Positions 12,436 to 15,789 of a stretch of DNA of 21,319 nt are shown here, piece after piece (position 1 is the stretch's first letter; each line of letters begins with the position of its first letter). The notes under the pieces were generated by a model. The model ran no database searches. It saw only the letters and a list, made by a program, of their open reading frames with translations, and was not told where the DNA came from. This stretch comes from a virus: positions 1 to 21,319 of IMG/VR virus record IMGVR_UViG_3300001848_000862. One strand, given 5' to 3'. Position numbers and translations under genes: made by a program.

Positions 12436-13429
12436 CTACGGTTAGCCAAGGCTCATCTTCATCGTCTAAAAAAGATGGTGCATTTTGGCTTAAAATGCGT
12501 ATTCCCCCTTTAAAACCTTCATTTTCTAAATTTTCATTAAGATTATCAATTATTTGTACGTTTTCTATTACTCTACGGGGCGTTTTAAGCCAAGTGTTTT
12601 CTACTTGACCAGACAAAGTTATAAACCTAGAGTAAACGTTTTCTCCGCCAGGAACTCCCCAATCATTATTTGGCATCAAATCAGAACTTGATATAGAAGA
12701 TTCCGCAAAAGATCTAGCCTCAAGAAGTCCTTCTCTATATCTTAAAAGAATGTGAACTATAAATGCATGAAGCCACATCAAAATAGATGGATCCCCATGA
12801 ACATGACAACCTATATGATATGTTTCTCTAAAAAAACTATGCTCTCTTCGCACTCTATAAATTTGATATTTTGGAACAACAGCTAATCTGGATGCAGATA
12901 TCTGCATGCCTGCCTCTATAGCAATACCATTTTTGCCGCTTCTACCTAATACTACGTAACCTTGACCGTTATCTGGATTAACTAAAATCATATCTTTAGA
13001 CACAAGCGTGCTATTGATTTCATTTGGAAGAATCACTATACCAGTATCTTGGTCATAAGATATTGGAATAAACGGTTTTAATATATAAGGTATGGGTTTA
13101 CCAATTTTGTTTGGCATAAGTTCAATTACTTCTGAAGAAAGATCTCCCATACTTTTTTCTTCGATTATTTCGCTTGAGGATCCTAAGCCTATAGTGACAC
13201 ACGGAAGCTCATCTTTATCTCCAGGTCGACTTTGAAGATTAATTGATATTTTATTATTTGCAAGCCACTGTTTAGCTTTATCTATCTCTGATTGACCATA
13301 TTTTTTTTGTAAAGCAGGCTCATCAACCATTTGACTAAGAATATCATCAACAAGCCAAAGGTTTTTGCGCATATCATCTAAACCTTGTTCTATGGCTGTT
13401 TTTATTATAACATCACCAGAAAATATCAC
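12428..13429 (-). CDS. probable tail terminator / neck protein (333 aa)
   Basis: GTG start at 13427-13429 within a GTGA overlap with the previous gene, with AGAGG six bases upstream. The N-terminal half contains ELPCVTIGLGSSSE and a beta-rich part with DMILVNPDNGQGYVV and AVVPKYQIYRVRREHSF. The C-terminal half is marked by HIGCHVHGDPSILMWLHAFI, then LLRYREGLLEARSFAESS and GENVYSRFITLSGQVEN. This alternation of a beta core with one long amphipathic helix and a conserved Tyr-Ser-Arg strand resembles tail terminator or tail-completion proteins of myophages. The place between a gp10-like neck protein and the sheath agrees. It would cap the tube and join the tail to the head. The family is inferred; it could be another neck component. 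Confidence 0.6.
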   Translation of the reverse strand: MIFSGDVIIKTAIEQGLDDMRKNLWLVDDILSQMVDEPALQKKYGQSEIDKAKQWLANNKISINLQSRPGDKDELPCVTIGLGSSSEIIEEKSMGDLSSEVIELMPNKIGKPIPYILKPFIPISYDQDTGIVILPNEINSTLVSKDMILVNPDNGQGYVVLGRSGKNGIAIEAGMQISASRLAVVPKYQIYRVRREHSFFRETYHIGCHVHGDPSILMWLHAFIVHILLRYREGLLEARSFAESSISSSDLMPNNDWGVPGGENVYSRFITLSGQVENTWLKTPRRVIENVQIIDNLNENLENEGFKGGIRILSQNAPSFLDDEDEPWLTVDE

Positions 13430-14193
13430 TTAAACCTCTTTAAGATCTCAGGAAGAATTTCGTTTTCCCAAGCTTGGTTTGCCCATTCAAGCGCTTGTTC
13501 AAAAAATTTATCCCCTTCTCTACCAGGATGTATCCATTTATTTCCTTTATGTTTGCTACTTACCATCCTAAAGGTCATAATATCGCGACGAACTTTACCT
13601 TCAGCAGTCTGTGTTTGATATATTCTAAGGCCAGATAAAGCCTCATGACTAGCGCGTGCTGTAGGTTTTGGGCTAGTAATATCAAATTTGTGAAGCAAAC
13701 CTATTCGCGGACTTCCATCAGGATTATATTCAAGTTTTTTGAAGGGTATTTTAGCTCCTATACGAGAAGATTCATCTCTAAGTACTTGCTTTATTAAGCG
13801 CACCATTTCTTTTTGAAAGGCACCCTGTTGAGAAGGCGCCTTAGAGTGTTCAAACGGTATAGCTTTATATTTTGATCCATCTTTTGCTGTATGGGCATTA
13901 TTTTTTAATAGATCTTCAGTCATATCTCCAGACTTACGCCCTTCTTCAATCCACAAAGCAGGGGCATCCAAACTTACTACCCAAATACCAGGCTGAACTT
14001 CTTGAAAATCTAAATTATCCATATACATTTTTCTAGTAGTACTAAGTTTAGATGAAGCAAACTCTTTAACTTTAGCGTGCGTAGATGCCGCTAAAGCTTT
14101 AACGCCATCTTCTATAGCTTTTTTAGCTTCTTGCTTAAAGTTTTGAAGTTCGGCCACAATTGAGTCTGCATCTACTAAAAAGTTTAATCTCAC
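13426..14193 (-). CDS. HK97 gp10-like neck / tail-completion protein (255 aa)
   Basis: GTG start at 14191-14193 with AGAGG eight bases upstream. The N-terminal helix (about residues 8-50: ADSIVAELQNFKQEAKKAIE, then VKALAASTHAKVKEF) is typical of gp10-like neck proteins. The middle holds DAPALWIEEGRKSGDMTEDLL. The C-terminal strand-loop-helix (about 206-255) has FRMVSSKHKGNKWIHPGREG followed by FFEQALEWANQAW, the conserved finish of the family. This protein would sit at the head-tail junction and complete the tail attachment. It is longer than the usual 120-170 aa, with an insertion around 105-190. It is one base downstream of the -1 frame stop discussed at 14195..14428. Confidence 0.7.
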   Translation of the reverse strand: MRLNFLVDADSIVAELQNFKQEAKKAIEDGVKALAASTHAKVKEFASSKLSTTRKMYMDNLDFQEVQPGIWVVSLDAPALWIEEGRKSGDMTEDLLKNNAHTAKDGSKYKAIPFEHSKAPSQQGAFQKEMVRLIKQVLRDESSRIGAKIPFKKLEYNPDGSPRIGLLHKFDITSPKPTARASHEALSGLRIYQTQTAEGKVRRDIMTFRMVSSKHKGNKWIHPGREGDKFFEQALEWANQAWENEILPEILKRFK

Positions 14194-14194
14194 C

Positions 14195-14428
14195 TTAATA
14201 CCTCTTATGGGTAATATCGCCTTTTAAATCTAAAGCAACAGGCTTTTTTACGTCTATATACTTAACCTTACCTGTTTGATTATCAATTTCTTTCATTTCA
14301 CCTCTGTAATTTATAGCATGCTCTGGAATTTGAGGTTTAGTTATATGTTTAGTTGTTTCTTTGGCCGGTAACCTGCTTTTGGCTACAGGCCCTGAGGCTT
14401 TGGGGCATTGGGCACCTCCGAGCGCCTG
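14195..14428 (-). CDS. candidate -1 frame C-terminal extension of the cyclase-palm protein (77 codons)
   Basis: Reading in the -1 frame from the slippery heptamer gives 77 sense codons and a TAA at 14195-14197, one base before the GTG of the next gene. The codon use (AAA, GAA, GAT, AAT, ATA) resembles that of neighbouring genes. The peptide starts QALGGAQCPKASGPVAKSR, passes KPQIPEHAINYRGEM and ends VKKPVALDLKGDITHKRY. The frame has no ATG, GTG or TTG in the first 44 codons. Its first start codon is an ATG with GAGG just upstream (14295-14297), which would give only a 33-aa gene. If joined by frameshift, the product is 454 + 77 = 531 aa. Alternatives are a free 33-aa peptide, a sequencing error or a recent frameshift mutation. 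Confidence 0.5.
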   Translation of the reverse strand, partial: QALGGAQCPKASGPVAKSRLPAKETTKHITKPQIPEHAINYRGEMKEIDNQTGKVKYIDVKKPVALDLKGDITHKRY

Positions 14429-15789
14429 TTTTTTTCTTCAGATCCTTCCATATGACGAGCAAGTTCTATTGTTTGTTTTAGAAGACCTATAATTGAATCG
14501 TACAAATCAGGATTACTTCTTTTCATGGAAACAATTATGTCTTTATTTTGTTTAAATTTTTTTAGTATTATTTTTATTTTATTTTTAGTATCATCATGCG
14601 ATTGAGATTCAGATAACAAAGAAGATAGCAGATTAAGTTCGGAAGGCCCTTCATAATCATCTGACGAAGTTTCAGGGTATTTTTGATCTAAAGATTCTTT
14701 TGATGTATCCACCATTGAATCATCTGTATTTTGAAAATTTTCTTGATCATCACTAAAAGCTTTTTGATCAAAATTTTGTTCTTCTTCGCCTGTATCATTG
14801 GATAAGTCATCTTTTTCTGGTTCTTTTATTTGATCAATTAAAGAATCTTTCATATTTGGCACTTGATCATCGAGTTCTGGTATATGATCATCATCATCAT
14901 GATCTTCTTCAGAAGATCCAGTCATCAAAGCATCTACTTGATTTTCTGGTTTTTGCTCAAGCTCATTATCTTTGGAAGCCTGCTCCATAGAGGTTGGGGT
15001 TTCTTCTTCTTCTTCTTCTTCGTGCTCCATATTAGAGCTTTCTGGTATATCTAATGGCTGCTCTTCATTTTGTTTTTCACCTTCAAGATCTTCTCCTTGA
15101 AGATCTAACCCTTGTTGCGCTGGTAAAGATTCTTCAGAAGCATCGGCATAAGTTTGCCCCGTACATAAAGGACAATTGCAACCAGTTTTTTCTTCATCTT
15201 CTGAGCTAGACTCAACTTCTTCTGGCATTCTTTCTTCTGGCATTCTTTCTTCTGGCATTCTTTCTTCTGGCATTTCTTCTTCGATGTCATTGTAATTATC
15301 TCCTTCTTGGTATTCGTTTTTATCGTCCATAACATGGCTAAGATAGTGCTCATCTATCTTTTGGGCTTCTTTGCCTCCTGCACCAGACATTGCCTCAGAA
15401 TGAGCTTGAGAAAGTATTTGCTCTATATGATCATCATAGTTTATGATCATATTTTTTCCACTAAGCTTTCCTGCCATAAGAGATTTGCCCGCTTGACTTA
15501 AAGAGAGGCCGGTACCTATAGTTACAGTAAAACCTGTAACGTTTTCATACATCTTTTTAAGCTCTAAAAGCTGTTGATGTTTAGAGGGATCAATAAAAAA
15601 AGTTGCTTCATCGCCACCTTCCGATATTACGGTACCACCATTAGCTGATACCCAATCGCGAACAGTTTGCCCGCCCTGCTTAATTTTAGTTGAAATAGTA
15701 TTTAATAATTGAGCATCATCTTTAAGAACAGCAGCTCCAACTTGTTGTCCAGCATTGTCGCCGTCTATAGCCACGTAAAGCTTGTTCAT
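14383..15789 (-). CDS. GGDEF/mCpol-like nucleotidyl-cyclase palm domain with acidic tail (468 aa)
   Basis: ATG at 15787-15789, in a 4-base ATGA overlap with the 304-aa gene and after AGGAGC. Residues 1-113 form a palm domain: YVAIDGDNAG (D9 and D11), a helix, then SEGGDEATFF (GGDE at 58-61) and a strand-helix region with VTIGTGLSLSQAG and LMAGKLSGKN. The metal-binding Asp positions and the final G-K-N fit the GGDEF / Cas10 / mCpol / GTP cyclohydrolase III superfamily. After a helix (114-150) comes a long acidic, disordered chain with four MPEER repeats (about 173-191), a CNCPLC cluster (204-209), a run of seven Glu, and a basic helix (about 410-450). The acidic tail looks like that of a scaffold or core protein. 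Activity and product are unknown. It could be catalytic, a nucleotide binder or a structural reuse of the fold. Confidence 0.75.
   Translation of the reverse strand: MNKLYVAIDGDNAGQQVGAAVLKDDAQLLNTISTKIKQGGQTVRDWVSANGGTVISEGGDEATFFIDPSKHQQLLELKKMYENVTGFTVTIGTGLSLSQAGKSLMAGKLSGKNMIINYDDHIEQILSQAHSEAMSGAGGKEAQKIDEHYLSHVMDDKNEYQEGDNYNDIEEEMPEERMPEERMPEERMPEEVESSSEDEEKTGCNCPLCTGQTYADASEESLPAQQGLDLQGEDLEGEKQNEEQPLDIPESSNMEHEEEEEEETPTSMEQASKDNELEQKPENQVDALMTGSSEEDHDDDDHIPELDDQVPNMKDSLIDQIKEPEKDDLSNDTGEEEQNFDQKAFSDDQENFQNTDDSMVDTSKESLDQKYPETSSDDYEGPSELNLLSSLLSESQSHDDTKNKIKIILKKFKQNKDIIVSMKRSNPDLYDSIIGLLKQTIELARHMEGSEEKNRRSEVPNAPKPQGL
14428..14434 (-). promoter_or_regulatory. candidate -1 ribosomal frameshift site A AAA AAC
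   Basis: In the zero frame of the 468-aa gene the bases read GAA-AAA-AAC (codons 452-454), giving the X XXY YYZ heptamer A AAA AAC. A Shine-Dalgarno-like GGAAGGA ends 8 bases upstream, as at bacterial frameshift sites such as dnaX. A 5-bp stem (GGCGC / GUGCC, 6-base loop) lies one base downstream, and a longer GGCC-bounded region follows. The -1 frame is closed by TGA just upstream and open for 77 codons afterwards. Confidence 0.5.
15217..15276 (-). repeat. 15-bp tandem repeat (4 copies) encoding MPEER
   Basis: The plus-strand unit TTCTTCTGGCATTCT recurs with a 15-base period (GGCATT at 15224, 15239, 15254 and 15269). It encodes an in-frame acidic pentapeptide in the disordered tail of the palm-domain protein. 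Copy number can change by slippage without breaking the frame. Confidence 0.9.

Follow-up and report, generated by a model that had tools for sequence, protein, structure and literature searches.

A conserved candidate -1 frameshift signal in a head-tail-region phage gene encoding an mCpol-domain protein

The dnaX gene undergoes a -1 frameshift at the heptamer A_AAA_AAG, which is accompanied by an upstream SD-like element and a downstream stem. Among phages, the lambda G-GT region yields two products from a morphogenesis gene through a -1 slip, and frameshift extensions are described for the T3 coat protein, for Lactobacillus phage A2 and for the Listeria phages A118, A500 and PSA, with direction and need varying among relatives (PMC5009743). 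The mCpol domain is known from the Panoptes anti-phage system, in which the acidic active-site residues of OptS are Asp6 and Asp57 (PMC12657218). Within the accessible portions of the literature on mCpol with phages, on frameshifting in phage genes and on phage Mx1, we found no description of the mCpol gene reported here. The kind of event we propose, bacterial -1 frameshifting, is a known one.

The stretch of DNA analyzed (the window) is a virus record of 21,319 bases from a metagenome assembly. Its minus-strand gene cluster contains a tail sheath gene (phrog_279, E 1e-34 in PHROGs), as well as a tube-like protein and an SP10_terminator-like gene recognized with Pfam and PHROGs, all of which lie downstream of the mCpol gene. 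In L002, one of the relatives, the order is a major head protein gene (phrog_752), several unassigned genes, a phrog_1004 head protein gene and then the mCpol gene. Since the gene follows head genes in L002 and precedes terminator-like and sheath genes in the window, we place it in the head-tail region. The following features of the window are relevant here:

14383..15789, minus strand: 0-frame ORF of 468 aa, with the mCpol domain (approximately residues 5-118), an acidic linker and a helical segment (approximately residues 390-450)
14428..14434, minus strand: A_AAA_AAC, in frame, not conserved
14415..14419, minus strand: SD-like GGAGG, 10 nt upstream of C_CCA_AAG, identified by anti-SD duplex energy
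14398..14404, minus strand: slippery heptamer C_CCA_AAG, in frame and conserved in relatives, the proposed actual -1 shift site
14363..14391, minus strand: downstream hairpin GGCC..GGCC, beginning 6 nt after C_CCA_AAG, supported by folding and by covariation in its class
14383..14385, minus strand: 0-frame stop TAG, which ends the short product
14198..14404, minus strand: -1 frame extension with the conserved C-terminal peptide, 69 codons from the slip site
14195..14197, minus strand: TAA that closes the -1 frame, a single base short of the following gene's GTG (14193)
13426..14193, minus strand: next gene, 255 aa, GTG start, a conserved neighbor (phrog_16819)

We propose that this gene would produce both a 468-aa and a predicted 531-aa protein through a -1 slip at C_CCA_AAG, aided by GGAGG and the hairpin, a reading to which we assign a probability of roughly 0.9. 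The 468-aa protein is presumably the usual outcome, released by ribosomes that stay in the 0 frame as far as TAG. A fraction of the ribosomes would pause at the heptamer (14404-14398), with GGAGG pairing to 16S rRNA and the hairpin 6 nt downstream also assisting; both tRNAs would re-pair one base back, on CCC AAA, and the slipped ribosomes would read the -1 frame to TAA, adding a basic C-terminal peptide. The extended form may be present in small amounts in the virion or during assembly, and its C-terminal module might dock onto a head-tail partner. Slippage at C_CCA_AAG and its efficiency are what we infer from a comparison that reveals a conserved peptide, heptamer, spacing and stem, as well as selection.

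Like dnaX, the window carries a three-part signal of heptamer, SD-like element approximately 10 nt upstream and downstream stem; unlike in dnaX, where the slip truncates the product, here it would extend it, and both the heptamer and the gene are different and unrelated, respectively. The predicted product shares with the T3, A2, A118, A500 and PSA cases a C-terminal addition to a protein of the virion cluster, but those additions are largely Ig-like domains, whereas here the addition is a short basic peptide with a small predicted beta structure, and the carrier protein has an mCpol domain. The resemblance to lambda G-GT lies in a -1 slip within a gene of a phage morphogenesis cluster and in two predicted products; however, the site is not located between tail tube and tape measure genes, but in a gene upstream of the terminator-like and sheath genes.

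When employed alone as a query, the 468-aa protein gave no matches in the phage collection or in viral contigs. Relatives were found via the conserved downstream protein, in successive rounds that gave 3, then 37 and then 78 viral loci, to which were added Myxococcus phage Mx1, the only cultured relative found, and three contigs of metagenome-assembled genomes, recovered in a second search of genome contigs after a first one without matches. The collections are largely metagenomic, and several loci end at contig ends. The peptide lies in the -1 frame in 58 split loci (31 of them fetched after the pattern had been stated), which correspond to 45 distinct junctions after removal of near copies. 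The next gene was readable for 41 of these junctions, and grouping them by its sequence at 70% identity gave 30 clusters. All 45 distinct junctions display the -1 relation. The only +1 pair is L052 and L053 (L052:5601-5790 and L053:5702-5891), where the peptide is in the +1 frame after CCCACAGCRRTAA and no canonical heptamer is present.

In order to survey slip sites, we selected, for every split locus, the longest ORF that overlaps the peptide in another frame, and listed all in-frame X_XXY_YYZ heptamers. In 44 of the 45 distinct junctions, C_CCA_AAR or A_AAA_AAG is present in frame at 7-28 nt upstream of the 0-frame stop, and the heptamers comprise 21 CCCAAAG, 6 CCCAAAA, 17 AAAAAAG and 1 AAAAAAC. 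The same heptamers occurred in the last ten codons of 7 of 353 other long ORFs (Fisher p 6e-50, a value that treats related rows as more independent than they are), and the background rate of CCCAAAR and AAAAAAG is approximately 0.9 per 1000 codons. C_CCA_AAG is reported to be highly shift-prone in E. coli (PMC5009743), and in the window it is a 0-frame heptamer inside the two-frame overlap, as canonical -1 frameshifting requires.

A sequence-only reading of the window had already proposed a -1 frameshift extending the palm-domain (mCpol) protein, but had located it at A_AAA_AAC, with GGAAGGA as stimulator. What it described is indeed there: A_AAA_AAC is in frame within the overlap and canonical (14434-14428, minus strand), GGAAGGA lies 8 nt upstream (14449-14443), a gap of 189 nt separates the ORFs, and the -1 frame is open up to its TAA, one base short of the next gene, yielding 531 aa from either heptamer, with the two versions differing in approximately 10 residues. 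However, both A_AAA_AAC and GGAAGGA are missing from the nearest relatives, L002, L003 and L004, and the hairpin at 14391-14363 lies 36 nt downstream of A_AAA_AAC versus 6 nt from C_CCA_AAG; moreover, an overlap this long would contain some in-frame XXXYYYZ by chance in approximately 14% of cases. It had overlooked the second in-frame heptamer, C_CCA_AAG, which with GGAGG and the hairpin makes up the conserved set: C_CCA_AAR and the downstream stem are conserved in the nearest relatives, and the SD-like element too in most of these loci. Comparison thus upholds the extension and moves the site. We regard slippage at A_AAA_AAC as very unlikely; this heptamer is probably there by coincidence and would at best serve as a minor second site, and the slip site of the window is very probably C_CCA_AAG, 30 nt downstream of it.

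The elements flanking C_CCA_AAG were analyzed by energy and folding calculations. The duplex between the SD-like element of the window and the anti-SD reaches -10.8 kcal/mol, a strength that none of 345 in-frame windows across this ORF attains. Most loci of the CCCAAAR class have a strong element, and many of the AAAAAAG class (for example L025, L027 and L036) have a weak one or none. The hairpin of the window has an MFE z of about -2.6 to -3.5. When 50 nt were folded at each of the 45 junctions, the helix started 5-7 nt past the heptamer in 39 and exactly 6 nt past it in 28, with a mean z of -2.5; stems are weak or absent in some loci, such as L024 and L067. In the class 1 stem (MAFFT alignment, ten pairs), 89% of cells are paired versus 14-44% in slid registers and the covariation score is 0.42 versus 0.01-0.09, although the unslid register is favored because the structure was drawn from these same sequences; the shuffles are therefore the better control, and against these there are 15 double-change cells versus 5.0 (0 of 500). 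These values indicate compensatory changes in the predicted class 1 stem.

Slippage of RNA polymerase on a run of A, instead of ribosomal frameshifting, would find substrates in the AAAAAAG class, with its runs of at least 6 A, and in the 7 A of the window at 14435-14429. Nevertheless, 27 of the 45 junctions are CCCAAAR, with no long single-base run, and the SD-like element and the stem are spaced as expected for a ribosome, which makes this explanation even less likely than the displaced site.

The -1 frame is open far beyond what chance would give. The basic, conserved peptide of approximately 65 aa is encoded by the -1 frame in the window and in the first three relatives, is conserved across a 16-sequence alignment and is recognized by profile in 75 of the 87 sequences searched, the window included. 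In the closest CCCAAAR-class pairs, those of lowest estimable dS, dN/dS is 0.05-0.2, which is no estimate for the whole family since dS is saturated in many pairs; these values indicate that the predicted -1 frame product is under purifying selection. The peptide had no match in PHROGs, no significant sequence match in the PDB and no reliable fold match, its copy in the window had no match in Pfam, and the window peptide modelled alone attained a pLDDT of only 71.

Another possibility is that the peptide has a small gene to itself, with an independent start and perhaps dependent on translational coupling. Such a gene would suit the dense packing of the cluster and the single base that lies between the peptide's stop and the following gene. 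However, the entire -1 frame of L002 and L003 is devoid of ATG, GTG and TTG, and in the window the first -1 ATG is located inside the conserved region, 108 nt beyond the C_CCA_AAG slip site and 44 codons past A_AAA_AAC, in line with the 44 codons lacking a normal start that had been counted from the sequence. The peptide is also fused in a single ORF in L015, L016, L037, L058, L062 and others. We consider an independent gene highly improbable, below polymerase slippage in likelihood.

The peptide lies within one ORF in 16 loci, Mx1 included, and in these fused lineages the extension can be made without any shift. On an unrooted tree built from 39 rows of the downstream protein, split and fused states are separated by four changes, which carry no direction. 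A slippery heptamer persists in about half of the distinct fused loci, in about six lineages: in L016, L058, L062, L068/L070 and L087 the domain is preceded, at a distance of 28-31 nt, by AAAAAAG or CCCAAAR in frame, and L037 carries AAAAAAA in the corresponding place. Ribosomes slipping by -1 in these fused loci would read 1-2 further codons (14 for L062) before reaching a stop, and most of the loci retain a stem. The canonical heptamer is missing at the junction in L015, L017, L019, L055, L056, L080, L081 and Mx1. We read the fused loci with a heptamer as an inverted, dnaX-like arrangement, noticed after the sequences had been viewed and with the background of approximately 0.9 per 1000 codons as its sole null; in L016, L037, L058, L068 and L087 a -1 slip would soon be followed by termination, an outcome resembling that of dnaX. 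That fused relatives keep both the heptamer and a close -1 stop suggests that selection holds a ratio of short to long product, and that both products are under selection.

Homologs with the two frames already fused had been named in advance as a pointer to a sequencing error or a mutation, and they do occur in some lineages; such loci are a minority, with the four changes noted above and about half of them slippery, and therefore do not point to either event in the window. An error, or a recent frameshift mutation in one ancestral gene, is the least credible explanation, since even with fused homologs and a metagenome assembly to speak for it, 45 distinct junctions share the -1 relation, the slippery site, the spacing and a covarying stem. 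On the above comparison, an independent start, a sequencing error, RNA polymerase slippage and the A_AAA_AAC site were all rejected.

The protein carrying the proposed shift at C_CCA_AAG matches the mCpol profile PF18182 at its N-terminus (E 7e-17, 62.3 bits versus a gathering cut-off of 26.4), and phmmer matched it to the solved OptS relatives 9nwn and 9mnr, with D9 and D60 of the window aligned to Asp6 and Asp57 of OptS. The AlphaFold model of a naturally fused relative, L081, confidently resolves the mCpol domain (pLDDT above 90) and also shows helices and, at the C-terminus, a small beta module (pLDDT about 84-88), the linkers being disordered; in a Foldseek search with this model, OptS ranked first, with 9mnr at a TM of 0.87 of the target. 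The N-terminal PF18182 domain and the aligned Asp are thus shared with Panoptes OptS (PDB 9mnr, 9pd0, 9nwn), but here the domain is part of a larger protein of a phage virion cluster. Panoptes systems carry an adjacent effector gene of the OptE or S-2TM-beta type; no such 2TM effector domain was seen in the part of the neighborhood covered here, ten proteins of the window by Pfam and ten by PHROGs.

All three Asp are retained in every CCCAAAR-class row that has an mCpol domain. The first is replaced by Asn in 12 of the 16 AAAAAAG/AAAAAAC-class rows aligned there, and Mx1 has lost both key Asp. As the active-site Asp are kept in the window and the CCCAAAR class and partly lost elsewhere, catalysis is possible in the window and is not a constant of the family.

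Other observations concern the variability of these loci. The acidic linker of the window protein contains a tandem PEERM repeat (15221-15280). The 3' parts of the mCpol genes of L006 and L008 are nearly identical and their mCpol domains strongly different, which looks like a recombinational domain swap. The C-terminal peptide is kept and fused in L015, L016 and L019, yet an mCpol domain was not detected there; in L014 (4190-5971) the mCpol ORF runs into the next gene, and the peptide was not found. A homing-endonuclease-like gene (L088:7215-8768; phrog_3339, E 3e-91) lies directly after the major head protein gene of the relative L002, and in L018 (4912-5931) and L020 (2840-3844) the conserved downstream protein has next to it, on the other strand, a relative of the terminator-like gene and lacks an adjacent mCpol gene.

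With the proposed extension, the frameshifts known from phage structural clusters would gain a -1 case that is deeply conserved and that gene calling likely misses because the extension has no start codon of its own and fills an inter-ORF gap in the window. Heptamer type, direction and default frame have all changed in these natural replicates, so that selection for two products could be studied directly. The comparison also establishes the mCpol domain as a standing part of the virion gene cluster in a poorly known group of phages. A broader reading, which we hold to be rather unlikely, is that in a clade of large myophages a head-tail-cluster protein bears a potentially active mCpol cyclase of the Panoptes type, and that a recoding signal keeps its two forms at a set ratio, persisting through inversions of the frame in which the slip either extends or terminates the product. 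If this were true, virions or infected cells would contain a fixed amount of a nucleotide-signalling enzyme, anchored through a frameshift-encoded peptide.
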